DNA of 60,851 nt, taken from an uncultured Clostridia bacterium. Lineage in GTDB: Bacteria; Bacillota; Clostridia; Christensenellales; Pumilibacteraceae. The stretch is from NCBI GenBank assembly GCA_944372345.1, contig CALVYT010000006.1:1-60851 (forward strand). Direction: 5' to 3'. The notes beneath the pieces were generated by a model. That model was not told the origin of the DNA and did no database searches. It saw only the letters and a list, made by a program, of their open reading frames with translations. Shown here piece by piece: positions 12,486 to 36,589 of this stretch; within the stretch, counting starts at the first letter, position 1; each line of letters opens with the position of its first letter. The position numbers and the translations under genes were made by a program.

Positions 12486-12519
12486 AAGCGGCGTTCGGCT
12501 GCTCTGCGGAGGTTTTCGG

Positions 12520-13785: not shown

Positions 13786-15798
13786 ATGGCAAACGAGATC
13801 TGCATAGGGCTCGATCTCGGCAGCGATACGCTGAAAATAGCGTATGCGTCCGGGAGCGATAAATGCGGAAAATTTCTGGACGACAAACATTCGCTGAACG
13901 TCGCCGTTCCCGCCGTGGCATATTACGACAGAGCCGCGGGCAAGTGGATATACGGCGACGGGGTGGACAGCGGAGAGCGATCCTTTATCAACGTCGTGAA
14001 GATAAAGGCTCTGATCTCTATGCTGATAGACCGCCCGGACGCGCCGACAGTCGTTAAGAAGAACAGGGAATACTACGCCGACGGCAGCCGTTTCCCCAAG
14101 TTCTGTTTCCCCGCGCGCCGCAAAATGCTCGACGATTTCGGAGAGATGGTGCGCCGCGACCTGACGTTCGACGCTCCCGGTTTTACGCCGCGGTCGGTGT
14201 GCGAGGGGTATTTTTCGTATATAGCCGAGGTCGTGAGCCGCAATATAACCGAACTTACCGCGCTCAAAGGCGCGGAAAAGTGCGAAAAGATCAGGCTCGC
14301 GCTCGTCTATCCGGCGGTCGCGGATAAGGCGTATATCGCCGAGTACACCCGCCTCGCGGAAAACGCGTTCGGGATAAAAGCGGACAAGGTGATGAGCTTT
14401 ACCAAGGCGCTTTCGATGTACGCATACGGAATGGGAATGGTATCGCGCAACGAGTCGCTGCTCATATTCGATATGGGCGAGGACGTCATATCCGTCGCCA
14501 AAGCCTCCGTCATACCTTCGGCGGAGGGCGCGCGCGGCTCCAACGGCGACGAGCTCGTCGTCGACGGCAGCGACGGGCACAGTGAACCGCTCGCCGTCGG
14601 TGGCAACGACATAGACCGTGCCGTGGCGGAATATATCCGCGGCGGCATAGAAAAGCGCGAAACGGTGGGCTATCCGTCCTACGGCGACCCGGGACATATC
14701 AGTGAAACGTGGCTGCACTCCAAGCTGTATCTGTTTATGAAGGAGATCAAGGCGGCGAAGGTCATACTGAGCGCGCCCGGCGGCGGTTCGGGACTGTTCG
14801 CCGACGGCGTTCCCGTATCCGTCAACTGCGATCTTTACATAGAGCGCAAACTGACGCGCGAAGAGCTCTGCCGCTGCATAGGCGTGACGGACGGCAGCGG
14901 AGTCGCTCGCGAGATCGCCGATTACATTCTCGGCGAACTGCGCCGTTCGGTCAATAAGGGCGTAAGTAAAGTGTTCCTTTCGGGCGGACTGACGGAAACG
15001 TACGCGCTCGCGGATTTCATCAAGGAGCAGGTCGCGCGCGAGTTCCCGGGACTGCGATTTTATCCTGTCGATTCGGACGGCACGGAGGAGAACGACGGGT
15101 TCACCATTCTCCGCAACGAGGACTCCGTTTACGCTCCCGCGGCGGGCGCGGCGATCGCGGCGTACCGCAACTACGACATACGCGCGGTGCTCGCGCTGTC
15201 CTACGGGACGTGGGTGGACTTTAAGGATCAAAAGCTGAAACTGCTCGCGCTGTTCGTGGACAGGGGCACGCCTCCCGACGCGGAGGGCGAATACAAAACG
15301 GAATTCACCGTCCACGGCGAAAAGGTGCCGGACGAGGAGATATTCTCGACGGTCATCACCCGCCGCGACATACGCTCGGGAAATTATCCCGGACTGCGCG
15401 ACGACGATATGATAATTTACGACAACGAGCCGTATCTCGTCATCGGGGAGCGCGGGAGCGCGCAGCGCAAGCGCGTCGCCGCCGCCGTGGAGCTTTGCTC
15501 CGTCAAGAAAGACGAGATACTTTACTGGCATAACGGCGCGCGCGTCCATATCACGGAGGGCAGCGTGTCGTGCTGCGAGGGGATGCGGATAACGCCGGAG
15601 GGCAGGGCTAAGCCGTTCGTGCGCAACGACGAAACGGGATACTCCAGGATAGTGGGGATAAAATATCTCGGAAAGCCGCGGCGGCAGGACGGGACGACGG
15701 ACTTTTCCGTCGATATTTCGCGGATATACCACGTCTACGCAAAGGACGTCGTGGTAGGGTTCAAAGACGGTGCGGAGCTGGAACTGTCCACCGGCTGA
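13786..15798 (+). CDS. Hsp70/actin-fold ATPase, first gene of the novel operon
   Basis: A 670-residue protein with the nucleotide-binding signatures of the Hsp70/actin superfamily: phosphate-1 IGLDLGSDTLKIAYA (residues ~7-21), phosphate-2 LLIFDMGEDVISVAKA (~225-240) and the adenosine motif KVFLSGGLTETYALADFI (~390-407). Residues ~470-670 replace the usual substrate-binding half with a region I cannot assign (it starts near AVLALSYGTWVDF and is beta-rich). The canonical Hsp70 linker and peptide-binding signature are not evident. DnaJ and GrpE partners are absent locally. In this operon it could be an ATP-driven switch or scaffold for the helicases. The start is supported by GAGGCGGTG upstream. 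Confidence 0.8.
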   Translation: MANEICIGLDLGSDTLKIAYASGSDKCGKFLDDKHSLNVAVPAVAYYDRAAGKWIYGDGVDSGERSFINVVKIKALISMLIDRPDAPTVVKKNREYYADGSRFPKFCFPARRKMLDDFGEMVRRDLTFDAPGFTPRSVCEGYFSYIAEVVSRNITELTALKGAEKCEKIRLALVYPAVADKAYIAEYTRLAENAFGIKADKVMSFTKALSMYAYGMGMVSRNESLLIFDMGEDVISVAKASVIPSAEGARGSNGDELVVDGSDGHSEPLAVGGNDIDRAVAEYIRGGIEKRETVGYPSYGDPGHISETWLHSKLYLFMKEIKAAKVILSAPGGGSGLFADGVPVSVNCDLYIERKLTREELCRCIGVTDGSGVAREIADYILGELRRSVNKGVSKVFLSGGLTETYALADFIKEQVAREFPGLRFYPVDSDGTEENDGFTILRNEDSVYAPAAGAAIAAYRNYDIRAVLALSYGTWVDFKDQKLKLLALFVDRGTPPDAEGEYKTEFTVHGEKVPDEEIFSTVITRRDIRSGNYPGLRDDDMIIYDNEPYLVIGERGSAQRKRVAAAVELCSVKKDEILYWHNGARVHITEGSVSCCEGMRITPEGRAKPFVRNDETGYSRIVGIKYLGKPRRQDGTTDFSVDISRIYHVYAKDVVVGFKDGAELELSTG

Positions 15799-15811
15799 GG
15801 AGAAGATGAAA

Positions 15812-18706
15812 ATGGCAAAAGAAGAATACGACGTACTTTCCGAAGCCGCCCTGCGCGTCACTGCCGACGCGGAAGCGCTTTCGGGAGATATAGGCAGGCA
15901 GCAGAGCCTGTTCGACTCGGTCGCCGTCAAACCCGCGACGGAGGAACTTTCCGAAATGAACGCCGCGGCGGAGGAACTCAACCGCTACGACGACTTTTCC
16001 GCGCTCAAAATAGCCCCTGCAAAATACGAGAACGGCAGCGGCACGGGCATATACGGCATCCGCCGCCGCGACGAAGTGCAGGGGATCGGCGGACCCATCA
16101 TACTCGAACACCAGAGCAGCGCGGCTCTGCGGTTCCTTCGCGAACTGCGCGGGTTCGGACTGCTCGCCGACGTGGTCGGCAGCGGCAAGACGTACGAAGC
16201 GGGCGTCGTGATCAGCGAACTCGCCGTGCGCGGCAACGTCAACTCGCTGCTCTTCGTCGTTCCCGCGCAGGTATACGATACCTGGACGGAAGTTATGGAA
16301 AAGCAGTTCGGGATGGGGGAGAACGTCCTGCTGCATATAGGCGGCGATCTCGCGGAAAGCGGCGTCCCGTGCGAAAAAGCGGGCGCGTTCCTGCGCCCGA
16401 CGCGCCCCGTCATCGTGACGACGGAGGATTTCGCGGCGTGGTCGGACTCCGCCGCGGCGTATCTGTTCGACGTCATCGTCGTGGACGAAGCGCACAACCT
16501 GTGCGCCGAGGGCGGCAAGTACGCGCGGGCGATGAAGATGCTCAGTATGCTGATGCAGACCAAGAAGAAGGCGGGCGCGACCTACTGCCTGCTGCTCACC
16601 GCGACGCCGCATACGGGCAACCTTGCGAATATGTACCGTCTGTGGTACTTTATCAGGGACAACGGCGGCACGCCGTCCGACTTCGACGAAAAGGACGACT
16701 CCGCGCGCACCGCGACGTACAGGACGGAAAAGCGGCACTATCTCGAAGACGTGTGCCGCGGCGCGACCACCGTCACGGAGTTCATAGGCAAAGTCAAGCT
16801 GCGCGAGGTGACTTCGGCAGGCGGCGACGCGTTCGCGAAATACCTGCGCAAAACGGGCGTAGACAAGCGCAAATACGATAAAAAGACGGAGAGCGAAAAG
16901 ATCGCTCTCGCGGACGGATTTCTCGACGAGCCGGGCAACGAGGCTCTGCGCGCCGCGGTGACGGCGCGCGTGGCGAGCGCGTACCACAACAACGTGCTGC
17001 GCCCGATAATGATAAGACAGGCGAAGAACCCGCTCGTCGAACGCAGAAAGAAGTTCGTGTTCAACAAGCTGTATCTGCCGACGGAAAAGCCGCTCGGCAA
17101 GGTGACGGTGGAGGCGGAGAACGCCGGCGAAGTGACTGTCGACCTCACGTCGCTGTCCGGCGAAGGGGAGATAACCTTCGGCGGCGAAACGATGACGACG
17201 GATAAGTTCCTCGCCGAATACGCGCGCTCCACGGCGGGGCACGACGGCGCGGCGCGCCCGAAGAGCGCGGTGTACGCAATGCTGATGCGCCGCCTGTTCC
17301 CGTATTTCTGCGACGAAACGGGGGATTTCCCCTCGTCGGTATTTGAGAAGAGCGGCTCTGCGGAGTACTATCTCGGCAGACTCGCCGCGGGCGACGCGGA
17401 GCGCACCCAGAAGACGGAAGTGGTGCCCGTGCCGTTCTCGGACGACCCGTTCGACCGCAAGCTCGCGGAAACGAAAAAAATACTGTCGCTGCACAAGGAC
17501 AAGCGCGTGCTCGTGTTCTTCGACTACGACCTGCCCAAGGACGAGTGCTACGCGGAGCGGTTCGCGGAGGAGATAAAGAAGGACGAGAAGTTCGCGTCCC
17601 GCATAGTGCTCGGGTCGCGCGCCAACTCGCGCGAGGCGGAGCGCAGGTTCAACGAAAAGGAAAACGCGGTGCTCGTCGTGCTCGATTCCGCGCTGACGGA
17701 AGGCGCCAACCTGCAGGCGTCCAATATCATAATCAACTTCCGGGTCACTCCGGACCCGCTGGCGATGGATCAGCGCATAGGACGCATATTCCGCCTCGGG
17801 CAGAGCAGCGACGTATATATATACTCGCTGGCGGAGATGAACGCCCTCGAAGGGTACGCGCTGATGTACTTCGCGGGGATAGGTCTGCTGTCCGCGGGCA
17901 GCGGCGACGCGACGATAATCTCGGGCAGCAACAGCGAGCGCATGGTCGCCGTGCGCTGCAAGGTGTGCGGCAACGTCCGTCTGTATTCGCTCGACGACTA
18001 CGAGGCGAAAAAGAAGAACGACGAGCTGTACTGCCGCCAGACCCCCGAGTGCATGACGAAGGACAGTCCCAAGGGCACGCGTATGGACGAGATCAGCGTG
18101 TGGGATTTCAGGTGCGACAACGAGAGCTGCGGAGCGACGTTCACGCGCTCCGTCGTACAGGAGGGGTATTTCTGTCTTTCGCGCACGACGGACGGCGGGA
18201 TAATGTGCAACAGCGGGGAGTCCGGCGACCGCAATTTCTACTGCCGCAAGATATGCGCCGTCGCGCATTGCAAAATGTTCCTCAGCGGCGCGAGAAAGGG
18301 CTGCGCCGCGCTTGCGAGATACAGGGAAAAGGGTTTGACGGTGAGCAACGCCGAACTGATGTACATATGCGAGTCCTGCCGCTGGTCGGACGTATGCTGC
18401 GGGCGGATAGACACCCGCGAGGACAGCGTGACGAGCTGCTCGACCTGCCCCGAAACGATGTGCAGTCCCAAGCCGGGCGTGATACGCTTCGACGGGGAGT
18501 GGGAGACGGACTGTCCCGTCTGCGCCGCGGAGGGCAGAAAGGGCAGGCTGCGCAAGGTCACCGCGCACACGTTCGCGGCGTACCTGCGCGCGTCCTGGAA
18601 CTTCAAGGCGGACAGGAGCGGCTTCTGCTACAACCTCGGGCGCGAAGTGCGCCGCGGCGCGGAAGTGCGCGACGTTCTGCGTATGGACAAGGAGAACGAG
18701 AGGTAA
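15812..18706 (+). CDS. SNF2-type superfamily 2 helicase with C-terminal cysteine-rich array
   Basis: A 964-residue protein. Motif I is GLLADVVGSGKTYEAG (Lys126), motif II VVDEAHNLC (DEAH 225-228), motif III LLLTATPHTGN, and motifs V/VI read TEGANLQASNIIINF and MDQRIGRIFRLGQ (from ~652). This is the RapA/SNF2 arrangement of dsDNA translocases. Residues ~715-960 hold at least eight Cys pairs (CKVC, CDNESC, CRKIC, CESC, CSTC, CPVC and others), suggesting several zinc ribbons that may read DNA or RNA. ATG 15812 is preferred to 15806 for its spacing from GAGGAG. It begins 13 nt after the Hsp70-like gene. Confidence 0.85.
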   Translation: MAKEEYDVLSEAALRVTADAEALSGDIGRQQSLFDSVAVKPATEELSEMNAAAEELNRYDDFSALKIAPAKYENGSGTGIYGIRRRDEVQGIGGPIILEHQSSAALRFLRELRGFGLLADVVGSGKTYEAGVVISELAVRGNVNSLLFVVPAQVYDTWTEVMEKQFGMGENVLLHIGGDLAESGVPCEKAGAFLRPTRPVIVTTEDFAAWSDSAAAYLFDVIVVDEAHNLCAEGGKYARAMKMLSMLMQTKKKAGATYCLLLTATPHTGNLANMYRLWYFIRDNGGTPSDFDEKDDSARTATYRTEKRHYLEDVCRGATTVTEFIGKVKLREVTSAGGDAFAKYLRKTGVDKRKYDKKTESEKIALADGFLDEPGNEALRAAVTARVASAYHNNVLRPIMIRQAKNPLVERRKKFVFNKLYLPTEKPLGKVTVEAENAGEVTVDLTSLSGEGEITFGGETMTTDKFLAEYARSTAGHDGAARPKSAVYAMLMRRLFPYFCDETGDFPSSVFEKSGSAEYYLGRLAAGDAERTQKTEVVPVPFSDDPFDRKLAETKKILSLHKDKRVLVFFDYDLPKDECYAERFAEEIKKDEKFASRIVLGSRANSREAERRFNEKENAVLVVLDSALTEGANLQASNIIINFRVTPDPLAMDQRIGRIFRLGQSSDVYIYSLAEMNALEGYALMYFAGIGLLSAGSGDATIISGSNSERMVAVRCKVCGNVRLYSLDDYEAKKKNDELYCRQTPECMTKDSPKGTRMDEISVWDFRCDNESCGATFTRSVVQEGYFCLSRTTDGGIMCNSGESGDRNFYCRKICAVAHCKMFLSGARKGCAALARYREKGLTVSNAELMYICESCRWSDVCCGRIDTREDSVTSCSTCPETMCSPKPGVIRFDGEWETDCPVCAAEGRKGRLRKVTAHTFAAYLRASWNFKADRSGFCYNLGREVRRGAEVRDVLRMDKENER

Positions 18707-18710
18707 GGCA

Positions 18711-20333
18711 ATGGCGATCGTTATAGGAAGGGATTACAAAGCGGCGTTCGACGGTATGTGCCGCCTGATCGCGGGCGGCTGCGCTCCCGACGGAGTTAAG
18801 CTGGAAAACGGGCGCATAGTCTGCGACGGCGGCGTGTTCGAATATTCGGACGCCGTCGCGGGGATAGACGTCACCGACGGGATGTCGGTGAAGATGAACG
18901 CGAAGGACGGCGCGAGCTGGTTCGCGTCGCTGCGCGGCGGCGCGCGGGCGGAGAGCGATCTCGCGCTGTGGAAAAAGCTTGTCAAATCGGTGGGCGACCA
19001 TTACCGCAGGAACTATTCGCTCGTCGACTACGGCACGGTCGCGGAAGAGCCGACGGAAGAGGCGCGCTCGCGTATGACCGACCTCGTCCTGCGGCTCGCG
19101 CAGATGTTCTATCCGAGCGACGAAGCGGAGATACGCGAACGCCGCGGCGGTATGGCGGACGTATACGGGCTGAACGTCAGAGCGGAGATGGGCAGCGGAG
19201 CGGGCGATCCCGTTCCCGTGCTCGGACGGCTGTATTTCCGTCGGACGGACAAAGGGCTCGTCCCGCTCGCGGGCGGCGACGCGCGCGAAGCGGAGGCGTT
19301 TACGGCTTCCGCCCGCGGCGCGAAGGACGCTAAAAAGAGCGCTTCTCTCGGCGGCGAGAGCAACGGCAAGACCATACTCGACGTGTTCGGCGCGCTGAAC
19401 GGGCTTGTCGGCGGGCGGACGGCGTTCTCGCTCGGCGAGTGCCTGTATTTCCCCGGCGAGCGCGACCGCAAAGAGCTGCGCGAACTCGTCGTCAAGCTCC
19501 CCGCGGGGGCGAATACGATAGAATGCACGCGGCTGGAAGTGCTCGGCATATTCCGTATGCGCCTGCCCGACAGCATTTTCGACGTATGCGAGGACGGCGT
19601 GCCCGTGCTTCGCGCCGTCATAAGCGCGACGGGCAAGGTCAGCCTTTACTGCGTCGCCTGCAACGCTCCGCTTATGGAAAACGGCAGGATATATTGCAGC
19701 GACGAGGAAGGCGATACCGTCATAGAGCTCGATAAGGACGAGGACGACCTCGGGCTGGGCGACGGCGACGTGGAATATATCCTCGCGCACAGCGCGTTCG
19801 GCGAGCATCTGATGCCGAACAGCTGCGTCGGCGTAAGCTGCCGCCGCCGCATATGCACCGCGCGGCAGGAAAATCTCGGGACGGAGGAGGAGCCGCGGCT
19901 CGCGTGCTCCGACTGTCCGTATCCCGAAGTCGTGTTCGTCACGCCCGACGGCAGGCGGCTGTATACGCCCGACCTCGCCTTCGCCCGCGACGCCATGACG
20001 CTCGTCCCGCGCTCGCAGACGGCGAAGTGCACCGTCTGCGGCAGGACGTTCACGGCGGAGTCGCTGCGCCGCGTCGGGACGGTCAGAACGTGCGCGTTCT
20101 GCACCCGCGCGTTCGCGGAGGCGGACGCGGATTCCGCGTCCGCGCGCAAGCTGTATAAGCGGTTTTCGGGCATGCTCGGATACGGCGTGCGGCTGCGGCA
20201 CATAGGTAAAAAGAAATACTGTTTCGACGACGACGACATCACGATGATGATGCTCGGCGACGACGTTTACATACTCGACAAGAGCGAAATGCGCTCCCGC
20301 GGGCGGATAGCGAAGCCGCGTAAAACGAACTGA
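18711..20333 (+). CDS. Cysteine-rich protein of unknown function, operon gene 3
   Basis: A 540-residue protein with no recognised family. The N-terminal ~300 residues are mixed alpha/beta. The C-terminal part has zinc-knuckle-like pairs: YCVACNAP...YCSD, SCRRRICTA...CSDCPYP, and CTVCGRTF...CAFCTRAF. It ends with a basic tail (RSRGRIAKPRKTN). It lies 4 nt after the SNF2 gene, and the two share the Cys-rich character, so they may be partners. A GAGAGGT ribosome binding site is present. Zinc binding is inferred from the CxxC spacing only. Confidence 0.6.
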   Translation: MAIVIGRDYKAAFDGMCRLIAGGCAPDGVKLENGRIVCDGGVFEYSDAVAGIDVTDGMSVKMNAKDGASWFASLRGGARAESDLALWKKLVKSVGDHYRRNYSLVDYGTVAEEPTEEARSRMTDLVLRLAQMFYPSDEAEIRERRGGMADVYGLNVRAEMGSGAGDPVPVLGRLYFRRTDKGLVPLAGGDAREAEAFTASARGAKDAKKSASLGGESNGKTILDVFGALNGLVGGRTAFSLGECLYFPGERDRKELRELVVKLPAGANTIECTRLEVLGIFRMRLPDSIFDVCEDGVPVLRAVISATGKVSLYCVACNAPLMENGRIYCSDEEGDTVIELDKDEDDLGLGDGDVEYILAHSAFGEHLMPNSCVGVSCRRRICTARQENLGTEEEPRLACSDCPYPEVVFVTPDGRRLYTPDLAFARDAMTLVPRSQTAKCTVCGRTFTAESLRRVGTVRTCAFCTRAFAEADADSASARKLYKRFSGMLGYGVRLRHIGKKKYCFDDDDITMMMLGDDVYILDKSEMRSRGRIAKPRKTN

Positions 20334-20344
20334 CGGAGGTAAGT

Positions 20345-23300
20345 ATGGCAAACGAAAACGAAAAATACAAACTTACCGAAAAGCGCGCGGGCAGTCCGAA
20401 AGCTCTGCTGTACGCGGCGACGGGGCTTGCCGTCGCGGCGGACGCGATCGTGCTCGCGTTTATCGCGACGGCGGTCGGCGAGGCGAAATTTTTCATCGCG
20501 CCCGCCCTTATGCTCGCGCTCGACATCGCTATGCTGCTGCTTTCGGCGTTCGGCAATTTCCGCTTTACTTACGGCTTTATCGCGGTGGGGATATACTGCA
20601 TAGGCGCTCCCGTGCTGATGGCGCTGACGGGCGTGCTCTGTACGGGCACGGCTTCGGGCGCGGTTATGACCGTCCCCGCGGTCGCATTGTGGATGACCGT
20701 CCACGCGCTCGCCGTGCTCGGCGTGCTCTCGGGCGCGCTGCATGCGGCGAAAATAGGCAGCCGTCCGCGCACCGCGCTGGTGGCGGCGGCAGTCGCTCTG
20801 CTCGCGGCGGGCATATGCGTATACGTCTGGTCGCTCGCGGCGGGCGGGTTCTTCGGTCAGGGCGCGGGAACGCGCGTTCTGACGTTCGAATACGACTCCG
20901 CGACGGACTCCTACGCCGTGACGGACATTCTCGACGGTCCCGGCAGTACGGTGGTAGTCCCGGAAAGTTTCGACGGCAAACCCGTTGCGTCGCTCGACTG
21001 CGCCGTGATGAAGGCGGAGGGCGTGGAGCGCGTCGAACTGCGCTGTTCGTCCGACGTGGCGCTGGAAAACCGCAGCGAACTCGCTTCGCTGACGGACGTG
21101 ACGATAGTCGCGGACAAGTCGGCGATAGACGACTTCCGCGAGCGGTTCTATTCGCTCGGACTGTTCGCCGCGGGCAACGCCATGATCCCCGACGGCGAGG
21201 GAGTGACCGCCTACGCGGTGTTCGACTACTCGCAGGAAACCTACGAGCAGGCGGGCGGAAAGGTTCTGCCCACCTGGACGGGATCGGACATCGCCGATTT
21301 TGACATTGCGGGCTATACGGACGCGGGCTTTTCCTACGCCGCCCATACCGACTGGCTGGACGACGAGGATCTGCACTGGTGCGTGACGAACAACGGCGGA
21401 TATATAATGCGTATGTTCTCGGACGACTCCGACGCTTCCGTCATAGACGCGAGCGTGTCCTTCGATAAGGTATATAAGATATATACGGCGGCGGACAACG
21501 ATGACGTGTTCGACGGCTACGAGGGAATGACGGCGGAAGCCGACGACGCGGACTGCGTATACACGGTCGCGTCCGAAGCGGACGGGCTGATAGGCAGCTG
21601 GACGCGCGACGGCTTCTCCGTCGTCTGGCACGAGGGCAGCGTGAACGGCTCCGCCGTGACCGACCTCGGCGCGCTGCTGTCCTCCGACGACTTGTATTTT
21701 AAGAGCGGCATAACGCTCGCCCCCGTCTGGGAGCTCAACGCGCCGACGGTCACGCTTCCCGCCTCGGCTTCCGTTATTTATGCCGACGACGTGACGATGA
21801 CGGCGAACGCCGCAGCCCCCGCGGCGGGCTTCGACCTGTCGTATGAATGGACGGCTCCTTCCTCGGGCGTAACGGAGAACGATTCCGCGTCGCCGTCGTC
21901 GTACTCGATGACGAACGTGCAGCCGGACGACGAAGGCGGCTATACCGTCAAAGTGACCGCGTCCGATCCCGACGTTACGTCGCTGACCTCGTCTGCAAGC
22001 GCGACGGTAAGACTCACCGTGCGGCAGCGCGAACTGACGTGGATCTGGACAATAGACGGCGAACAGTATACCGACCGCGCGTCCGTGACTTACGACGGCG
22101 AAGCGGTGGATGTGACGAACTCGTGCCGTGGTAACGTCAACGGCGACAATGTGCTCGGCAGCATATCCACAAATTACGGAAGCGGCGCAGTGCTTGACGC
22201 GGGCAGTTACATACTGACGGTCACGCTGCAAGGCGAAATGGCGGAAAAATACCGCATAGGCAATAACGGTATGTCGCTGACGGTGGATAAACGCCCGGTG
22301 ACCGTTTCCTGGTCGGGCGGCGATTCGTTCGTCTACGACGGAGAGAACCCGGAGATCACGGCTTCGGCATACGGCACAGGCAGGGAAGACTCCGTGCAAC
22401 TGCTTGCCGACCTCCCGCTGGAAAAAGACGCGGGCTCGTATGTCGCGCGCGCCTCGCTGCTCGGCGATTACGGGAAGAACTATACGATCTCGTCGGGGGC
22501 GGAATTAGATTATACCGTATCGCGCCGCACGATAACCGCGACGTGGAGCAGCGACGACGGCTTCGTCTATAACGGCGAGGGGCAGAGCGTAAAGGTGACG
22601 GCTCTTGCGAACTGCGTCGGCGGCGACGAAGCGACCGTGCTCGAACGGCTGACGTACAATGCCGCGGGAGTGGACGCGGGGCATTATACAGCGACGGCGA
22701 CGCTCGGAAACGACAGCGTATCGAAGAACTACACGTTCGCGGGCGGGCTGTCCGCCTCGGCGGGTTACGATATAGCGAAGCAGACGGTGACCTCTCTTGA
22801 ATGGGGGAGCACGTCGTTCGTCTACGACGGCAATGAGCATAAGGCGGAAGTCGTCGGGATAGTCGGCTGCGTGGAGGCGGAAGAGAACGCGCTCATAGCC
22901 GCGCTGACGTATAGCGGCGGCAGGACGAACGCGGGCTCCGGCACGACGACGGTCACCGTGCCGACGAACGGCGTATGGCGCAATTACACCTATTCGGGCT
23001 CGCGCACGCAGGAGTATTCGATAGCGAAGCGGCAGATAACCTCGCTCGAATGGGGAACGGACGCGTTCATTTATAACGGCGAAGAGCGCGGCGCGCGCGT
23101 TACGGGCATAAACGGAGCGGTCTCCGCCGACGAGGCAGAAATGCTCGCCGCGCTGACGTATGCGGGCGACGCAGCGAACGTCGGCTCGCATACGACGACG
23201 GTCACCGTACCGACGGACGGCGTATGGGCGAACTATAACTACACGGGCGTTTTGACGCACGGTTACACGATCGAAAAGCGCGCCGTCACCCTCGAATGGG

Positions 23301-25170: not shown

Positions 25171-25187
25171 CATAAGGAGGAGAAACA

Positions 25188-26588: not shown

Positions 26589-26603
26589 TAACGGTAGCGG
26601 GAT

Positions 26604-28520
26604 ATGGACGCAAGAGAAACCTTAAAAGAAGCGAGGCGGATATTCGTGACCGCGCTCTCCGTCGGGGAAACGGAGCGCGGGATAGCTTTGATAAGCGATC
26701 TTCCCGCGGACATAAGCGACGAGAACAAGGAATACGCGCGCGCGTATGCCTATAAGCTGTCGCTGAAACGGCTCGCGCTGAATTTTGCGGAAAAGTTCGA
26801 CGAGAGCAGCCTGCAAAAACTGCTCGGTTATATAGACAGGTGCATGCCGAAACTCAGAACGGAGTTCCCGAGCACGCACGCCGCTTTCGCGCGGATGAAG
26901 AGCGCGGCGGAAAAGCTGGAAAGAGCGGAGCGGGAAACGCGGCGGGCGGCGGAAATGCTCGCCGCGGCAAAGAAAGGCGCGTTCGGTTCCGCGGAGCTTT
27001 CCGCGGAATGCGACAGGTTGCGCGGAGAGATCGCCGCGCTCGGCAGTTCGGATATTCCCGACGAGCCGCTCGGCGCGGGAGTGGCGTTTCCCGACTTAAA
27101 GGCGGAAGCGGAGAGCGCGCTCGGCAGGCTTGCGGGCGCTCTCGGCGACGAGGCGGCAAAACTGCTTGCTGCGGACGACGAGAAGCTGCTGCGGGGTGCG
27201 GTGCGCGAACTGGACGCGAAGGCATACGATTACTGCCCGGATATGGCGGAGATGACCCGCGGCATGGCGGGGGCGATAGTGCTCTGTACGCCGTTCGACG
27301 ACGAGGCGGAGCTGTACGTCCGTTCCGTCGCCGAGAGAGAGGGGCGGAAGTTCTCCGTCGCGGACTTGTCCGCGCTGTCCGACGCTTCGCCCGAAGCCGT
27401 GAAACGGCTGCTCGACGCGTTCGTAAGGGCGGGAAAGGACTGTCTGCTGCTCGGCGCGGCGCATTACGTCGGCGACTCGAACGCGCTGCTCGTTGCGGCG
27501 ATGCGGTTCGGCAAGGCGGGGCGCAGGATATATATGACGGACGACAGCGGCGGCGGGGTGTACCGCACGGCGCTCGAACTCGCGGTGGAGACCGACGGGC
27601 TGAGCACGCTGGACGTAAGCCGTCTGGACCTGTCCATGCCCGCGTTTGCGGACGTGATCCGTATATTCGAAGAGCGCGGGATGATATCGCCGTCCGACAG
27701 CGCAGAGGTAAGGAACGCGATGAAGTTCATCGGGTTCGTCGGGCTGAACGAAGCGGTAGCGGCGTTCGTCGGGGGCAAGGACTGGAAGCTCGCCGCCCGC
27801 CGCCGCTCCGAGGATAACCGTGCGGAGGCTCTCGAATATCTGGCGAGGTTAGCTAACCCGTCTTTGTTCATAGACTCGGACTGGGGCGACTTTTCGGGGT
27901 ACGGCAGCGGCGCGGACGAGAGCAAGCCGCCCTTCGATTACGACAGGATCGCCGTCGTCAATCCCGAAAACGTAAGACGCATAATGCAAAGCGGACTGTC
28001 GCTGTTCTCGCGCATAGGGATATTGACGAGATACTGTCTGCTCGCGGGGGCGGACGAATCGGTGTGGGAGCAGCTCGACCCGGAGATCAGGGAGGAGCGG
28101 ATAACCGAAGCGACCAAACTGACGATGCGCGCGCTCGCGATCCCGTTCGAGCCTGTCGTGGAGATAAAGAAAACGCTCGGACCGGGCGTGGCGGGGCAGT
28201 GCTGCGACGGCGGCAAGCTGATACAGTACGTCTACCACGACACGCTCAAATTCGACTTTTTGCAGCGGATGATCTGCCACGAGTGTTTCCACGCGTTCCA
28301 GAGCGAAGCGATAAACGGCGGCTGGAAGATATGGCACTGGGCGGAGCTCGGCGTCACGCGCAACCGCATCGGACAATGGAAGATGAATCAGACGGTATAC
28401 GTCGGCGACACGTCGTCGCTCGTATACAAGGTGGAGATATACGAGTGCGACGCGCGCGCGTTCGAGCACGACTGCGCGGACGGCGACGGCAAAGATTACC
28501 GCAAAGTGGATCTCGTGTAA
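26604..28520 (+). CDS. Protein with C-terminal HExxH metallopeptidase-like domain, operon gene 7
   Basis: A 638-residue protein. The N-terminal ~150 residues are helical (coiled-coil SAAEKLERAERETRRAAEML). Residues ~230-420 form an alpha/beta region with some resemblance to a P-loop fold but no Walker A lysine motif. Near the C-terminus FLQRMICHECFHAFQSEA gives H559-E560-x-x-H563, and 51 residues later YECDARAFE supplies Glu614 (or Glu621) as a candidate third zinc ligand. That spacing fits gluzincin-like peptidases, where a downstream E-x-x-A motif completes the site. It would act in the cytoplasm; the substrate is unknown. Only a weak GCGGGA ribosome binding site is seen. Confidence 0.6.
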   Translation: MDARETLKEARRIFVTALSVGETERGIALISDLPADISDENKEYARAYAYKLSLKRLALNFAEKFDESSLQKLLGYIDRCMPKLRTEFPSTHAAFARMKSAAEKLERAERETRRAAEMLAAAKKGAFGSAELSAECDRLRGEIAALGSSDIPDEPLGAGVAFPDLKAEAESALGRLAGALGDEAAKLLAADDEKLLRGAVRELDAKAYDYCPDMAEMTRGMAGAIVLCTPFDDEAELYVRSVAEREGRKFSVADLSALSDASPEAVKRLLDAFVRAGKDCLLLGAAHYVGDSNALLVAAMRFGKAGRRIYMTDDSGGGVYRTALELAVETDGLSTLDVSRLDLSMPAFADVIRIFEERGMISPSDSAEVRNAMKFIGFVGLNEAVAAFVGGKDWKLAARRRSEDNRAEALEYLARLANPSLFIDSDWGDFSGYGSGADESKPPFDYDRIAVVNPENVRRIMQSGLSLFSRIGILTRYCLLAGADESVWEQLDPEIREERITEATKLTMRALAIPFEPVVEIKKTLGPGVAGQCCDGGKLIQYVYHDTLKFDFLQRMICHECFHAFQSEAINGGWKIWHWAELGVTRNRIGQWKMNQTVYVGDTSSLVYKVEIYECDARAFEHDCADGDGKDYRKVDLV

Positions 28521-28565
28521 GCCCGCGAAGAAAGATCGGGGCAAACGAAAGATAAGGAGAACGGA

Positions 28566-31500
28566 ATGAGTTTACTCGACGACAGCATAATCGACCTTCT
28601 GCACATAGACGAGCCGCAGAGCAACAAACTGCTCGATCTGCGCGGCAGGAGCCCCGCAGCGACGTATATCCTTTCGCGCGCGGCGGAGAGCGACTTTACG
28701 GCATTTATGCTCGATCTGGTGCGCCGCCGCATAGGCAAGCCCGGCAATACCGCGCTGCTCGGCAGCGCGCTCAACGCCGCGGCGGGCGAGCAGATAGTGG
28801 GCAGGAACGTGAACGCCGTGGACTGGGCGGACGGCAACGGCGTCCGCGATCCCAAAGCCCTCGATTCGTTCATCGACACGGCATACCGCGATCTGTCGCT
28901 CAAAGGGAACAATCCGATGTTCCTCGGACTGGGCGCGCTCGAATGGCGGGTGTCCGCAGGCAGGGATGAATACGTCGACGTTACCACTCCGCTCGTGATA
29001 TTCCCCGTGCTGCTGCTGCGCGGCGGCGCAAGCAGTCCCGTGCATATGCAGTTCGTCGACGACGACATATACCTCAATCCCTGTCTGTTCGCAAAAATGC
29101 GTTCGATGCCGGGAATGGAGGAAGTGGCGGACGGATTTCCGCGTCCCGATCCCGAAAAGGAGGCGGACGAGCCGATAGACCTCGCGTCGCTCACCCCCGA
29201 ATATTTCACCGCGGTGGAGAAGTACGTCGACGAATGCCGCAGGAGCGACGAAACGGTGTTCCGTTTCAGACGCGGTATGGCGGCTGTGGCGGTATACGAC
29301 CACGGCGACGTGTGTATGTATTACGACATACGCGCCAACCGCGCCCGCATAGACGCGGACGGCAAGATCTGCCGCATATTCACGAAAGCGGAAAGCCTGC
29401 CGCCTCCCGCCGAGCCGAAGAGGGGGCTTATGCTCCCGCTCGCCCGCGACAGCGTTCAGGAGAACATAATCGGCAGGATAGCCGCGGGCGAATCGCTGAT
29501 CGTCAAAGGACCTCCGGGAACGGGTAAGACGCAGACGATCGCCAATATCATCGCCGCGCTGACGGGCGAGGGCAAGAGCATACTGTTCGCGTCCAAAAAG
29601 CTGTCCGCGCTCGGCGAGGTATACGCCAAACTGCCCGCGCAGCTGCGCCCTTTCGTAATGCTGCTCGAAAGCGAAACGGCGGCGCAGGCGGCGAAAATGC
29701 GCCCCGAGAACGTAACGGCGGATCTGCGCGCCCTGCTGCGCGCGCGTTCGTCGTACTCTCAGCCGGGAGAAGCCGTCTACGGCAAAAAGCGGCGGGGAAG
29801 AGAAGCGTGTTCGGAAGCCGCGCGGTTCATAGAGAAATACCGCGGACTGATGTTCGGAGCGCGCGGGGCGGCGGGACTGAGCTATTACGACGTGATCGAC
29901 GCGGCTTACCGCGAGGATCTGCCTCTCGTTCCGTTCGTCGCGCCGGAAACGGCGGCGGCTACGGGCGTGCGCGATTACGAAAGCGCTCTCGCCGCGGTCA
30001 CGGAAGCGGAAGTCTGGCTGCCGCGTATGACGGACGACGGGCGGCATGCCGCGGACGTGTGCCCGTATATGGGCATAACGGATAAGACGGACATCGAAAG
30101 CGCGAGAAGCGCGCTGATCTCGGCTGCGGAGTCCGCGAAAGACGCGCTCGCGGCGACGGCCGGATATTCGGAAATATCGCCTCTGACGCTCGGCGGGCTG
30201 ACCGCGCTGTGCCGCCGCAAATTCACCCGCGAAGAAGCGCGCACGGTGCGCGGACTTTCAGAGGAAGCGGCGGAGGACGTGCGCAAGGCGTTCGCCGCCT
30301 GCCCCGAGAAGCCCAAAGCGGCGTTCGAGGCGTTCGACGGTATGCTCGAAGCGTATGCGGAGCTGAACGCCGCGGCGGACGGGGCGGCGGGAATGACCCT
30401 GCGCGAACTGAAACTGCTCGTCGCCGAAAAGGACGTGTTCTCGGGCGCTGACGGCAAGCCTATGAGCCGCGCCGAACTGAACGCGGCGAAGGGCATCGCG
30501 GACGCCGCGGATAAGTTCACGGACGACGCGGTAGCGAGGTATTATAACTCGGCGGCTGCGTTGAAACGCCGCGAGGAGCTGACGGAGGACGAACGCCGCG
30601 AGGTAGTAAACGCCGCCGCGGCTGTGGCAAAATACGAAAATACGGATAGAATAAAGCCGGGCGTGTTCGATCTTGCCGCGAAAAAGGCGGTGAAGATACT
30701 GCGCGGGTTCTGCTATATGGACGACGTTTCCTTCGGCGATCTCGTCAGGGCGGCGTGCGAGTTCGCGCGCGCGGCGAAGAGCGAGGAAGAGGCGGTGAAG
30801 CTGTACGGCAGACTGTGCGCGCATTTCCGCCGCAGGCTGACTCCCGACCAGGAAAAGTGCGTGCGGCTGCTGCTGCGCAAAACGGGCGCGGAGCCGTCCG
30901 ATTTCTTCGCGGCTGCGTCCGAAGCGCTGGAAGCCGCCGCGAAATGCGCGGTCGCAGACGGCTCGGAGGACATCACCCCGCGCGAGCTTGCCGACAAGTT
31001 CGCCGACGGAATGAAAGTGGCGCGGCTGGCGGAAACGTTGAAAAACGCCGAAACGTGCGGCGAACCGCTCGTTACCGCGGAAGCGCTGCTCGCGCTGCGT
31101 TCGCTTTCGGACGAGGGCGCGTCGAACGCCGAGGCGCTCGCGCTGTCCGACCGTGCGGACGCGGCTGCGGACGCCGCGGAAAAAACGCGCGCCGCGCTCT
31201 CTGCGTTCGGAGTGAAATATTTCGCGAACGGCCTGACGCGCCGCGCGCGGCTTGCCGATCTCGCCGCGCTCGTAGACGAAGCGGACGACAGGAGCGTCGC
31301 GGACGCCGCGCTGCGTTACCGCCGCGCGCTGGACGCTTCGCCCGTATCTCTTTCCGCGCTCATGCGCCCGGTAGAGAGCGGAAAAATAACGGACACAGAG
31401 CCGAAACGGCTGTTCGAGCATAACTTCTTCCGCGCCGCCGCGGAGGGAATGGCGATGAGCCTGGGCGGCGCGCGCAACGGACTGGGAGCCGCCGCCGCGG

Positions 31501-33011
31501 AAGCGCTGCAAAAGTTCGCGGACGGCGAGCGGGAGATAGCGGAAGCGGACGTGTCGATCATCGAATCGCTGTGTATGAGCAGGATAGACCCGAATTCGAA
31601 GGCGTTCGCGTTCCTCGGTTCGGAGCGCTCCGCCGCTCCGTCGTCGCTGCGGCGGCTGTTCAAGGACCACGGCGACGCCATAAGACAGCTCAAACGGTGT
31701 TTCATACTCTCGTCGGCTACGGCGAGTCTGCTGATGCGCTCTCCCGAATATTTCGACTTCGACGTCGCGATAGTGGACGAGGCGAGCCAGCTCGAACCCG
31801 CGGGCATACTGCCCGTGCTGATGCGCGCGAAGCAGTGCGTCATCGTGGGGGACGAATGGCAGATGCCGCCGATAAACGATTTCAGAGCGTCGTCGCGCGC
31901 GGAAGGCGTGCCCGACGACGGGGATTTTCTCGAACCCAACGCGTCCGCGCTCGGCGTGGCTCTGCGCAACGAGGCGTTCAGGGTGTGCGAGCTTGTCTGC
32001 CATTACCGCAGCAAGACGGAATCGCTGATAGCGTTCTCGCAGCGGATGTTCTATCCGTATATGCGCACGTTCCCCGCGGCTGTGCCGAGAGTGGAAGGCG
32101 ACCTCGGCTTTACGGACATATATGTGGAGAACGCTGCGTGCAGGCGCGGTGAGAACAGGAAAGAGGCGGAAGCCGTCGTAGAGTGCGTCCGCAGACATTT
32201 TGAAAAGTATTACGACGAAAAGAAAGGCACGCTTTCGCGGTCGTTCGGCGTGGTCGCGTTCGGCGAGCCGCAGATAAAGCTCATAAAGAGCCTTGCGGAA
32301 AGGGACGGATGGCTGGGGCCGCGTATGCGCAAGGCGCTCGCCGCGTTCGACGACGTGGAAGAGCGGCTGATGTTCTTCAAGACGATACGAACGGTGCAGG
32401 GTCAGGAAACGGAGGATCTGTTCCTGTCGCTGACCTACGGTCGCAGCGACGAGGGCGGGCTCAGTCAGGCGTTCGGCACGCTCAACCGCAGCGAGCTGGG
32501 CAGGTGCGTGTTCAACGTATCCGTCACCCGCGCCCGCAGTTCGGTCACCGTCGTGCACTCGATAGAGGCGGCGGATCTGACGAACGAAAACATCTCGTAT
32601 ATCCGCGACTATCTGCGGCTGGCGGAGCGGTTCTCCGTGTCGGGAGCCGACCAGTTCGTCAGCGAAACTCCGCCCCCGGGATTTCTGCGCAGCGTCGGAC
32701 AGTATATCGTTTCCCTCGGCGTTCCCGAGGACCGCGTCGTATATAACTACGGCGTGACCGGCGGTTCGGTCAAGATCCCGATAGCCGTGCTCGGCGAGGA
32801 CAAGACGCGCGCGGCGATAGGCGTTTGGTGCGAGCGCGGCGGCGGAGCGTATGACTATTACGACTGCAATATGCGCTACTACGAGAGCCTCGTTTCCCGA
32901 GGGTGGACGCTGCACCGCGTTTCCGCGCACGACTGGTCGGACAACGCGGAAGCCGAACGCAGATCGCTGGCGGACGCCGTCAGACGCGCGCTCACGGGTA
33001 CGGACGCGTGA
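28566..33011 (+). CDS. Large UPF1/DNA2-like superfamily 1 helicase, operon gene 8
   Basis: A 1481-residue protein. The N-terminus (LLDLRGRSPAATYIL, NPMFLGLGALEW, TPLVIFPVLLLRG) resembles the DUF4011 domain found on many prokaryotic SF1 helicases. Walker A is IVKGPPGTGKTQTIANII (Lys321). After a helical insertion of ~650 residues come motif II VDEASQLEPAGILPV (Asp1071), VGDEWQMPP, CHYRSKTESLI, VQGQETEDLF and VSVTRARSSVTVVHS. The last ~90 residues (SVKIPIAVLGEDKTRAAIG to RGWTLHRVSAHDW) have the shape of the MTES_1575-type endonuclease fold seen in the same position in relatives, but its usual acidic active-site motif is not clear. It is likely a nucleic-acid translocase. GGAG precedes the start. 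Confidence 0.8.
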   Translation: MSLLDDSIIDLLHIDEPQSNKLLDLRGRSPAATYILSRAAESDFTAFMLDLVRRRIGKPGNTALLGSALNAAAGEQIVGRNVNAVDWADGNGVRDPKALDSFIDTAYRDLSLKGNNPMFLGLGALEWRVSAGRDEYVDVTTPLVIFPVLLLRGGASSPVHMQFVDDDIYLNPCLFAKMRSMPGMEEVADGFPRPDPEKEADEPIDLASLTPEYFTAVEKYVDECRRSDETVFRFRRGMAAVAVYDHGDVCMYYDIRANRARIDADGKICRIFTKAESLPPPAEPKRGLMLPLARDSVQENIIGRIAAGESLIVKGPPGTGKTQTIANIIAALTGEGKSILFASKKLSALGEVYAKLPAQLRPFVMLLESETAAQAAKMRPENVTADLRALLRARSSYSQPGEAVYGKKRRGREACSEAARFIEKYRGLMFGARGAAGLSYYDVIDAAYREDLPLVPFVAPETAAATGVRDYESALAAVTEAEVWLPRMTDDGRHAADVCPYMGITDKTDIESARSALISAAESAKDALAATAGYSEISPLTLGGLTALCRRKFTREEARTVRGLSEEAAEDVRKAFAACPEKPKAAFEAFDGMLEAYAELNAAADGAAGMTLRELKLLVAEKDVFSGADGKPMSRAELNAAKGIADAADKFTDDAVARYYNSAAALKRREELTEDERREVVNAAAAVAKYENTDRIKPGVFDLAAKKAVKILRGFCYMDDVSFGDLVRAACEFARAAKSEEEAVKLYGRLCAHFRRRLTPDQEKCVRLLLRKTGAEPSDFFAAASEALEAAAKCAVADGSEDITPRELADKFADGMKVARLAETLKNAETCGEPLVTAEALLALRSLSDEGASNAEALALSDRADAAADAAEKTRAALSAFGVKYFANGLTRRARLADLAALVDEADDRSVADAALRYRRALDASPVSLSALMRPVESGKITDTEPKRLFEHNFFRAAAEGMAMSLGGARNGLGAAAAEALQKFADGEREIAEADVSIIESLCMSRIDPNSKAFAFLGSERSAAPSSLRRLFKDHGDAIRQLKRCFILSSATASLLMRSPEYFDFDVAIVDEASQLEPAGILPVLMRAKQCVIVGDEWQMPPINDFRASSRAEGVPDDGDFLEPNASALGVALRNEAFRVCELVCHYRSKTESLIAFSQRMFYPYMRTFPAAVPRVEGDLGFTDIYVENAACRRGENRKEAEAVVECVRRHFEKYYDEKKGTLSRSFGVVAFGEPQIKLIKSLAERDGWLGPRMRKALAAFDDVEERLMFFKTIRTVQGQETEDLFLSLTYGRSDEGGLSQAFGTLNRSELGRCVFNVSVTRARSSVTVVHSIEAADLTNENISYIRDYLRLAERFSVSGADQFVSETPPPGFLRSVGQYIVSLGVPEDRVVYNYGVTGGSVKIPIAVLGEDKTRAAIGVWCERGGGAYDYYDCNMRYYESLVSRGWTLHRVSAHDWSDNAEAERRSLADAVRRALTGTDA

Positions 33012-33048
33012 CGCGCATAATATAAAACATAAGGTGAGGTGAAATACA

Positions 33049-33819
33049 ATGGAAGAAAAGATCGAAAATCTGGCAGAGAAGTACGGCGCGACCCCGTCGT
33101 TCATCGAGAAAATGGATAAGACGGAGCGCGAGCTCGAAGGCGAACGCCGTATCCGCGATATGGAAGCGCGCCTCGCCAAGCTCGGCGAAGGCAGCCGCAA
33201 GATCGCCGAACAGGCGGCGGAGTTCGCTCTGGAATACGGCAACGACGATTTCCGCACGGAGATGATGGTCGATTTCCTCGATATGGTCCTCGAAATACAG
33301 GACAGCATCAAGCTGCTCAAAGCGACGAGCACGGTGATGAACGTCCTTTCGCAGGCTATATCCCTTGTCGACGACATCGTGAATTTCAACGACGACGCGC
33401 TTTTGCAGTCCACGCAGAAGCGTTACGGGTTTTTCCAGCGCTGGCGGGCGAAACGCCGTATGCGCAAGGCGATACGCAACAACAACGCGCGTATGCTCGC
33501 GGTGTACGACACCATACTCGCGCAGCAGGAAATGGCGCAGGATATGACGGAGAGCCTGCGCGAAGCCGCTATGCGCATGCGTATACGCCGTCAGAAGCTG
33601 CTCGAAAAGCGCGAGGATAAGAAGCGCAAGATGGCGAAAAAGGGTCTGAACCCCGAACGCCTGTCCGATTCGAGCAAGGCGCGCAGCATGGTGGACGACA
33701 TAATCCGCGAAAAGCAGGGCGTCAAAGACGTGGGCGGCGTCGAGCCTCCCGCTCCGCCCGCGGGCGAGTCCGGTCCTTCGAAGTCGTCGGGCGACAGCGG
33801 CATAGACGACATAGCATAA
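33049..33819 (+). CDS. Charged helical protein preceding the AAA ATPase, operon gene 9
   Basis: A 256-residue soluble protein, nearly all helical. The acidic N-terminal half has long helices (ELEGERRIRDMEARLAKLGE, FLDMVLEIQDSIKLL). The middle to C-terminal part is strongly basic (RWRAKRRMRKAIRNNNARML, RIRRQKLLEKREDKKRKMAK). A disordered Pro/Ser/Gly linker ends in SGIDDIA. It lies 10 nt before the Vps4/katanin-like ATPase, so it may be that enzyme's substrate or adaptor. The size and all-helical nature recall ESCRT-III-type polymers, but the charge order is reversed and no sequence match is claimed. GAGGTG precedes the ATG. Confidence 0.6.
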   Translation: MEEKIENLAEKYGATPSFIEKMDKTERELEGERRIRDMEARLAKLGEGSRKIAEQAAEFALEYGNDDFRTEMMVDFLDMVLEIQDSIKLLKATSTVMNVLSQAISLVDDIVNFNDDALLQSTQKRYGFFQRWRAKRRMRKAIRNNNARMLAVYDTILAQQEMAQDMTESLREAAMRMRIRRQKLLEKREDKKRKMAKKGLNPERLSDSSKARSMVDDIIREKQGVKDVGGVEPPAPPAGESGPSKSSGDSGIDDIA

Positions 33820-33829
33820 GGAGCGCGGT

Positions 33830-34981
33830 ATGGCGGGAATAGATAAAAGACCCAAGGCGCAGCCGGGCGAGAGCGTGGACGAGCTTAAAAAGAAGTTCGA
33901 AGCGCACAAGAGCGAGATCCGCAAACTTCTCGGCGGCAAGAAGGATACCAACGACATCGGCAGGGACGAGAAACAGCGGCTGCGCACGGAGTATTCCGCC
34001 GCGGCGCAGCTTGCCAAGACGATAAGCGAGCGCCTGACGGACGAAGCGGAGAGCGAAACGTATGCGGATTATTACGAGAGGCTGAGCAAGAAAGCCGCCG
34101 CTTACGGTTCCGTCATCAAGAGCAAGATCCCCACGACGACGTTCGACGACGTCAAGGGTCTGAACGACGTCAAAAAACTCGTCAGGAGTTTTATGTATAT
34201 GGCGCAGCACCCCGATACCGTCGCCTATTACAAACTGGAAGGCGGACTGGGCATGCTGATGTACGGCGCGCCCGGCACGGGCAAGACGATGTTCGCCGAG
34301 GCGATCGCGAACGCGATGGAACTGCCGCTGTTCATCGTCACTCCGGCGGACATATTCAAGTCTTACGTCGGAGAGAGCGAGGCGGCGGTCAGGCAGATAT
34401 TCCAGGAGATAGACGCCTGCCCGGACGGCGCGATACTCTTCGTCGACGAGTGCGAATCCATATTCAGCCGCAGGGGACAGGACACCAAGGACTATAAAGC
34501 GGCGGTCACGACTGAGCTGCTCCAACGGCTCAACGGTTTCGGAGTGGACGGTTCCAAGCGCATCATAATCGCGGCGACCAACCGCCCCGACGTCATCGAT
34601 CCCGCGTATCTGCGCTATAAACGGTTTTCGCACCTCGTTCACGTTCCGCCTCCCGACGCGACGGCGAAGCGGGCGATCATAGATGGCAAGCTGAACGGCA
34701 TCGCGCTCGACGGCGTGACTACGGAAGACGTGCTCTATATGTCCGAATTCCCCGGCGACGGCGACTATACGAAGCCGCGCGCGTATTATTCCGCGGCGGA
34801 TCTGTGCGGGATAATAGAGGAGGCGTGCCGCCTCGCGCTCGAAAAATTGCAGGCGGCGGGGTCGACCGTCCCCATCCCGCTGACAAAGGATATGTTCGAG
34901 CGGGCGTTCAAAAAAATACCGCCGTCCATATCCGCCGAGCTGCTCGAAACTTACGAACAGTTTCGTTCGGGAAAGGAATAA
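33830..34981 (+). CDS. Vps4/katanin-like AAA ATPase, operon gene 10
   Basis: A 383-residue classical AAA ATPase. Residues 1-~95 are a helical N-domain of MIT-like size. The linker IPTTTFDDVKGLNDVKKLV leads into Walker A YGAPGTGKTMFAEAIAN (Lys152), the pore region PADIFKSYVGESEAAVRQIF, Walker B ILFVDECESIFS (Asp206-Glu207) and sensor 1 IAATNRPD. The C-terminus FERAFKKIPPSISAELLETY matches the PS(V/I)S..dl..Y helix typical of the meiotic clade (katanin, spastin, Vps4), which threads protein chains through a hexamer. It is the last gene, followed by a terminator-like hairpin. GGAG lies 8 nt upstream. Confidence 0.85.
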   Translation: MAGIDKRPKAQPGESVDELKKKFEAHKSEIRKLLGGKKDTNDIGRDEKQRLRTEYSAAAQLAKTISERLTDEAESETYADYYERLSKKAAAYGSVIKSKIPTTTFDDVKGLNDVKKLVRSFMYMAQHPDTVAYYKLEGGLGMLMYGAPGTGKTMFAEAIANAMELPLFIVTPADIFKSYVGESEAAVRQIFQEIDACPDGAILFVDECESIFSRRGQDTKDYKAAVTTELLQRLNGFGVDGSKRIIIAATNRPDVIDPAYLRYKRFSHLVHVPPPDATAKRAIIDGKLNGIALDGVTTEDVLYMSEFPGDGDYTKPRAYYSAADLCGIIEEACRLALEKLQAAGSTVPIPLTKDMFERAFKKIPPSISAELLETYEQFRSGKE

Positions 34982-36563: not shown

Positions 36564-36589
36564 TTTTCCGCTTTAATGATGGGAAGCCG

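Follow-up and report, generated by a model that had tools for sequence, protein, structure and literature searches.

What is encoded by a 21-kb block of ten genes that places an Hsp70-like ATPase next to two helicases, an AAA ATPase and a membrane protein? This question is raised by a stretch of 60,851 nucleotides (nt) from an uncultured Clostridia bacterium of the family Pumilibacteraceae (GenBank assembly GCA_944372345.1, contig CALVYT010000006.1). In this stretch, below called the window, ten plus-strand open reading frames (ORFs), named g1 to g10, fill positions 13786-34981. An initial annotation, made from the letters of the window alone, regarded these ORFs as an operon for one multi-protein machine that possibly acts in defence. 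The analyses described here establish that the operon is a real conserved unit of uncultured Clostridia. Its likely product is a multi-protein machine that has not been named before, and we predict that this machine defends its hosts against phages or other invading DNA.

Conservation of the ten-gene operon

The layout described in the initial annotation, ten same-strand genes over 21 kb with gaps of -4 to 45 nt, was confirmed by the ORFs and by the list of intergenic gaps, which are, in order from g1 to g10, 7, 4, 11, -4, 17, 15, 45, 37 and 10 nt. Searches with g1 yielded 122 related proteins (the best 120 of the 122 were listed), and a scan of a one-genome-per-species collection yielded 47 g1 loci. 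According to their titles, the hosts are uncultured Clostridia, Clostridiales, Eubacteriales, Firmicutes and Christensenellaceae, together with metagenome-assembled genomes (MAGs) of Candidatus Borkfalkia, Alloclostridium, Protoclostridium and Limadaptatus, several with animal-gut names. One g1 fragment is present in a MAG labelled Bacilli (L070), and the same genome contains g4-g10 on another contig (L140).

The survey of these loci comprised 59 rows after extension, 27 of which are cut by contig or fetch ends. Beyond the window's own locus, 20 loci contain g1-g10 in identical order on one strand, and two of them (G005 and L046) have two copies of g7. Another 11 loci contain g1-g6, g9 and g10 in order, with nothing in place of g7-g8, and one locus (G002) contains g1-g5 only. 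None of the 31 loci spanning the full block is interrupted by an unrelated ORF of at least 110 amino acids (aa). Because some rows are close relatives (G098/G115 and L048/L053), the 31 loci are not 31 independent events; the conservation of gene order across them is far beyond chance. All eight of the eight-gene loci that are present in a tree of the flanking gene mnmA form one clade, and therefore g7-g8 were probably lost or gained a single time.

The two ends of the operon also occur together. A g10 match at E<=1e-60 was found, one in each genome, in 38 of the 39 g1 genomes searched; in 31 of the 38 it shares contig and strand with g1 and lies 10.9-20.4 kb downstream, and in the other seven it is on another contig. 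In a sample of 151 genomes of the order, g1 is present in eight and g10 in six (E<=1e-60), and all six, the window's own genome included, are among the eight. Reckoned by hand, this overlap has a chance of ~2e-9 if the genomes are independent. The two g1 genomes of this sample without g10 (G002 and G128) belong to one family. Thus, rather than being scattered without co-occurrence, the homologues are strictly co-linear and co-occur, which supports the earlier view of one multi-protein unit and excludes a chance gene cluster.

The five-gene version in G002 (L013/L014) lies directly upstream of hrcA-grpE-dnaK-dnaJ-like genes. As the following genes read hrcA-grpE-dnaK-dnaJ by eye, the presence of another effector module after this five-gene set was rejected.

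The G+C content of the operon is 61.8%, versus 58.4% and 52.9% in the flanks of the window. Two boundary signals of the initial annotation stood in part. The promoter-like match at 13721-13749, which had been called one good promoter, is present upstream of the operon, but such matches do not exceed chance in number (6 observed versus 4.1, standard deviation 2.1, in shuffles). Likewise, the closing hairpin exists, but the strand of its T-run gives it the wrong orientation for an intrinsic terminator.

Table 1. Features of the operon and of its insertion site in the window
Feature	Position	Strand	Length	Remarks
g1, Hsp70-like ATPase, altered phosphate-2 loop	13786..15798	+	670 aa	
g2, SNF2/RapA/DrmD/BrxH-like translocase, Cys-rich tail	15806..18706	+	966 aa	
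g3, Cys-rich, likely zinc-binding protein	18711..20333	+	540 aa	
g4, membrane protein, five predicted transmembrane segments then MBG/Ig-like repeats	20345..24082	+	1245 aa	
g5, N-terminal zinc ribbon and helical region	24079..25170	+	363 aa	
g6, coiled-coil protein, acidic linker, short C-terminal motif	25188..26588	+	466 aa	
g7, predicted zinc metallopeptidase, HExxH and distal Glu	26604..28520	+	638 aa	not in eight-gene loci
g8, DUF4011/UPF1-like superfamily 1 (SF1) helicase, C-terminal MTES_1575-like domain	28566..33011	+	1481 aa	not in eight-gene loci
g9, helical protein, disordered linker, C-terminal tail of IDDI(V/L/A) type	33049..33819	+	256 aa	
g10, classical AAA ATPase, CDC48/Vps4/IetA-like	33830..34981	+	383 aa	N-terminal ~95 residues predicted helical
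Hairpin after g10	35007..35034			12 G-C pairs; T-run on minus strand only
mnmA, left flank of insertion site	12517..13596	+		named from sequence by eye
Iron-type alcohol dehydrogenase gene, right flank of insertion site	35315..36526	+		named from sequence by eye

The ten proteins and the named systems they resemble

The ten proteins were compared with Pfam, PADLOC and NCBIfam, and for six of them (g1, g3, g5, g6, g7 and g9) no family was found above cut-off in these collections. The earlier domain calls for SNF2-type g2, UPF1-like g8 and AAA protein g10 were upheld by Pfam. No nuclease was found above the Pfam cut-off among the ten proteins; the operon thus appears to lack a recognisable intact nuclease, although this does not prove that none is encoded.

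The Hsp70/actin-fold assignment of g1 appears to hold at the family level only. The g1 protein of the window has no Pfam match, and no PDB chain was found for it at E<=0.01, but PF00012 (HSP70) is matched by 6 of 34 g1 relatives, and an hhalign comparison of the g1 profile with the DnaK of the same genome, which is the sole PF00012 match there, gave an E-value of 6e-5. This alignment covers the phosphate-2 region, the GGxDxD and adenosine motifs and the hinge, and ends at the start of the substrate-binding (peptide-binding) domain. The DnaK loop DLGGGT is DMGED in g1 and DMGEE in the consensus of the g1 family, an alteration that suggests slow ATP hydrolysis. Slow hydrolysis has been argued likewise for the Hsp70-like proteins of CoCoNuTs in excerpts of PMC11090510.

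The best PADLOC matches of the SNF2-type protein g2 are BrxHI (6.9e-31) and DrmD (5.5e-27), and a match to ZorD was also found (1.1e-8); its scores against the NCBIfam DrmD model (104.3 bits, cut-off 610) and the RapA model (76.6 bits, cut-off 576) are lower than required. An excerpt of PMC12839542 describes BrxHII as parallel to RapA. The nucleotide-binding and QxxGRxxR motifs are present in all 47 rows of the g2 family, and DEAH/DESH in 45 of them. Ten cysteines are invariant across 29 rows of g3. For g5, which had been described as a zinc-ribbon/Sel1-like protein, the ribbon was seen (it is missing from 2 of 21 rows, L034 and L063), but the Sel1 label has no support in Pfam. In loci without g7-g8, the coiled-coil protein g6 ends in IISTITKK-like or INDIV/ITDIV-like sequences instead of tails of the S/T-D-D-D types.

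The second motor, g8, contains DUF4011 (32.4 bits, cut-off 22.2) and a UPF1-like core, and retains Walker A and DEASQ motifs with ~750 residues between the two. It matches PADLOC family PDC-S37 (4.8e-115, 383.9 bits), a name that was not found in the open-licence PubMed Central (PMC) literature. The NCBIfam matches to ProA (2.4e-106) and Hhe (2.9e-71) are both under their cut-offs (356.8 of 1500 and 240.5 of 2000 bits). The C-terminal domain, for which no significant solved relative was found, scores 26.8 bits against MTES_1575 (cut-off 38.2), and in 26 of 26 rows it has a proline at the position that we take to be that of the catalytic aspartate.

The membrane protein g4 was confirmed as a five-transmembrane (TM) protein with MBG repeats: the repeats match Pfam MBG_2 (2.3e-13), and simple hydropathy predicted five TM segments in 34 of 47 rows; 10 rows have six, 2 have four and 1 fragment has none. 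The part beyond the TM segments is long and variable (918-1747 aa in the full-span loci). In g7, the HExxH motif noticed earlier is kept in 27 of 27 homologues, and H559, E560, H563 and E614 are invariant in 26 rows. HExxH plus the distal glutamate E614 is presumably the gluzincin ligand pattern; no peptidase family was matched by g7 in Pfam or PADLOC. The two tandem duplicates of g7, in L011 (G005) and in L110 (the genome of L046), consist of diverged copies.

One explanation that builds on g4 and g7 is a system for competition or contact, in which the variable repeats of g4 meet neighbouring cells or phage tails, and g10 and g7 process a delivered or released protein. The long variable part of g4, the pairing of an AAA protein with a peptidase and the patchy distribution of the operon (see below) would suit such a role. 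However, neither a secretion apparatus nor a toxin or immunity family was found among the ten proteins in the three collections, g7 is missing from 11 of the 31 full-span loci, and the two nucleic-acid motors are left without explanation; we consider this role distinctly unlikely.

The AAA core of g10 scores 112.2 bits against PF00004 (cut-off 21.2), and its Walker A, Walker B and NRP motifs are present in 40 of 40 rows. Below their cut-offs are the matches to CDC48 (1.5e-43, 149.1 bits, cut-off 802.65), to IetA, the best in PADLOC (3.1e-30; in NCBIfam 94.2 bits, curated cut-off 510), and to Vps4_C (19.5 bits, cut-off 21.3). The neighbouring g9 carries its IDDI(V/L/A)-type tail in 37 of 38 rows. 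Entries of the ESCRT-III superfamily occupy 10 of the 49 rows that Foldseek gave for g9 and 17 of the 50 from VIA; an assignment of g9 to ESCRT-III would be tentative, since its sequence and structure matches are not significant and none is among the Pfam rows shown. Among the 41 PDB hits of g10 up to E 10, only helical chance hits and no MIT domain were found.

The g9-g10 pair could alternatively belong to a machine for envelope maintenance or membrane remodelling. Here g9 and g10 would be an ESCRT-III/Vps4 pair and g4 its anchor, g1 and g7 would treat envelope proteins that are misfolded or tagged, and regulation would be the task of the helicases. The hydropathy of g4, the classical AAA core of g10 with CDC48/Vps4-like best matches, the conserved tail of g9 and its ESCRT-III-superfamily entries all favour this explanation, as does a survey, seen in excerpts of PMC11237479, in which bacterial Vps4-like AAA genes adjoin a gene for a TPR plus 6TM protein instead of snf7. 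We regard it as rather unlikely. The operon is like ESCRT-III/Vps4 (and PspA) systems in placing a Vps4/CDC48-like AAA protein beside a helical protein whose C-terminal peptide is conserved, but differs from them in that g9 has no significant sequence or structure match and g10 no MIT match.

As judged by these comparisons, the parts of the operon resemble defence proteins, yet the definition of no named system is satisfied. In line with the initial annotation, no named system with this gene set was found in the open-licence PMC literature, a scope outside which lie most subscription papers and bioRxiv preprints. By predicted composition, CoCoNuTs are nearest. In the excerpts of PMC11090510, these systems combine an Hsp70-like protein with altered ATPase motifs, a UPF1-like helicase, a coiled coil and, in some cases, a Cdc48-like AAA protein; an Hsp70-like protein with altered motifs, a UPF1-like SF1 helicase, a coiled coil and an AAA protein are present here too, and the ~750-residue insertion after Walker A of g8 corresponds to a feature given there for Type II/III CoCoNuTs. 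However, no McrB-like GTPase or McrC was found among the Pfam, PADLOC and NCBIfam hits of the ten proteins, and the SNF2 translocase, the five-TM MBG protein and the zincin are outside the CoCoNuT core as described in these excerpts. Conflict systems that contain Hsp70 and AAA proteins but have different cores appear in an excerpt of PMC7159879.

The operon is like DISARM and BREX in the best PADLOC matches of g2, but PADLOC gave no match to DrmB, DrmC or a methyltransferase (DISARM) and none to PglZ/BrxZ, BrxC or PglX (BREX) among the ten proteins; the DrmA match of g2 is helicase cross-matching. Zorya comprises a membrane protein plus an SNF2-type ATPase, as g4 and g2 would do here, but no ZorA, ZorB or ZorE match was found by PADLOC in the ten proteins. 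The combination of an IetA-like AAA protein (g10) with a predicted peptidase (g7) recalls IetAS; IetS is a subtilisin, whereas g7 is an HExxH zincin and not of the subtilisin type, and the eight-gene loci have no peptidase. With PDC-S37, Hhe and ProA, g8 shares DUF4011, the UPF1-like motor and the MTES_1575-like C-terminus, but it scores below the NCBIfam cut-offs, has the proline in place of the presumed catalytic aspartate and is part of a ten-gene operon. BREX is described in an excerpt of PMC9122589 as having no apparent nuclease.

Insertion site, distribution and transfer

In the window, the operon is located between mnmA and the iron-type alcohol dehydrogenase gene, and this site was resolved in 5 of the 11 genomes of the genus, the window included. 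In G634 the operon is present at the same site, with g10 50 bp from the dehydrogenase ORF and the mnmA side broken by contig ends. The site is empty in G604 and G614, where the flanking genes are ~130 and ~400 bp apart. In G127, a sister species, ~11 kb at the site contain no operon but restriction-modification (R-M) and Kiwa-like genes, which encode two DNA methyltransferases (3.6e-103 and 3.4e-109), a type II restriction enzyme (3.4e-100), an Mrr-like protein (2.7e-20), and KwaA-like (6.6e-14) and KwaB-like (3.4e-11) proteins. The comparison of the five congeners therefore reveals one alternating site, which is empty in some genomes, holds restriction plus Kiwa-like genes in another and the operon in others. 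That the operon shares its site with relatives of known defence genes speaks for defence. R-M genes related to those of G127 (79% DNA identity) are also present elsewhere in the window, at 57315-60009.

The distribution of g1 is patchy: at the level of the genus it is present in 2 of 11 genomes, at that of the family in 9 of 61 and at that of the order in 8 of 151, and in a sample of 398 genomes of the phylum it was found in one, the window's own. These results bear on a housekeeping role in nucleoprotein or RNA-protein quality control, which would combine RapA-like recycling of RNA polymerase with UPF1-like and Cdc48-like activities. Such a role would agree with the RapA match of g2, the CDC48 match of g10 and the UPF1-like character of g8. 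However, presence in only eight of the 151 genomes is unlike core quality control, and the operon is absent at the site in G604 and G614 and replaced in G127; we consider this role very unlikely.

A tree of g1, g2 and g10 from 27 genomes places G005 and L046 with the Borkfalkia clade at 100/100, whereas in the mnmA tree, which includes an L035 row (G158, 42% identity) that is probably a paralogue, they are placed with the L055/G098/L044/L039 clade at 100/99. Because the operon and mnmA trees conflict, these results point to horizontal transfer. Identities of mnmA and of the operon genes are loosely correlated (Spearman 0.36-0.49, 378 pairs). Carriage as plasmid or phage cargo was rejected: a search of 72,556 plasmid and 50,697 phage records gave no match to g1, and no relative of g10 was found in viral contigs.

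Predicted function

The defence role that had been suggested as a possibility gains from the exchange with R-M and Kiwa-like genes at one site, the patchiness and the one sign of transfer, but not from the neighbours elsewhere, which are mostly not defence genes. Tentatively, we read the operon as encoding an immune machine that is anchored to the membrane and counters invading DNA or RNA without a nuclease.

Several points weigh against this reading. The site argument concerns one site, resolved in five of 11 congeners, and the transfer argument one strong conflict with one short marker gene; the missing g1 matches among plasmid and phage records also count here. In a scan of 30 of 276 listed neighbouring ORFs, called with a naive ORF caller, PADLOC matches at E<=1e-15 were found for 0 of the 20 nearest neighbours in other genomes and for 2 of 10 large upstream ORFs. 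The idea that every genome has a defence island here thus gained no support. The NCBIfam cut-offs for DrmD, ProA, Hhe and IetA were not reached, and PADLOC-like matches of motor proteins can reflect shared superfamilies. Finally, because no family was recognised for six of the ten proteins, the mechanism is for the most part conjecture.

What was observed comprises the gene order and its versions, the motifs, the co-occurrence of g1 and g10, the conflict between the trees and the insertion site; every functional step of an immune machine is one that we infer. Docking of the complex at the envelope would fall to the five-TM protein g4, whose MBG repeats would lie outside. The SNF2 translocase g2, aided by the putative zinc proteins g3 and g5, would grip incoming nucleic acid and move along it, and g1, with its altered phosphate-2 loop, would serve as a slow ATP-gated clamp and not as a folding chaperone. 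The coiled-coil protein g6 and the helical protein g9 may assemble on the target; their C-terminal tails may be engaged by the AAA ring of g10, which would recycle or unfold both proteins. Because one lineage is without g7-g8, the core would consist of g1-g6, g9 and g10 and would act by blocking or stripping nucleic acid, not by cutting it; the predicted peptidase g7 and the UPF1-like helicase g8 would form an add-on proteolytic and unwinding arm in the ten-gene lineages. A bolder version, in which an envelope-docked Hsp70-SNF2 complex captures nucleic acid and an ESCRT-III/Vps4-type g9-g10 polymer seals or strips the entry site, would represent a new class of nuclease-free immunity, and we regard it as very doubtful.

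As far as the searched literature shows, this 21-kb, ten-protein conserved machine is unnamed, and because it exists in natural versions of five, eight and ten genes, the contribution of each part can be tested directly. If it acts in defence, chaperone-like, SNF2, UPF1-like, AAA and peptidase parts would be joined in one immune complex without a recognisable nuclease, which would help explain phage resistance in these uncultured Clostridia.

Further observations concern the surroundings of the operon. In other genomes, one upstream neighbour (L030:5525-8344) matches mads_3 (1.6e-101) and another (L036:3302-6079) a type IIG restriction-methyltransferase (1107.8 bits). The window contains a second defence-like stretch at 54583-60009, where a protein that matches DpdB (2.3e-10) is encoded together with a DNA methyltransferase, a type II restriction enzyme and additional methyltransferases, and at 49196-50401 an ATPase that matches the candidate defence family PDC-S01 (501 bits). 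Long direct repeats, at 36581-37161 and 39560-40193 and ~3.03 kb apart, flank a pair of genes read by eye as a LytTR-type regulator and sensor. Sequences of ~110 bp related to these repeats are present on the mnmA side of G634, at the contig breaks (L190:427-544 and L192:1-108).

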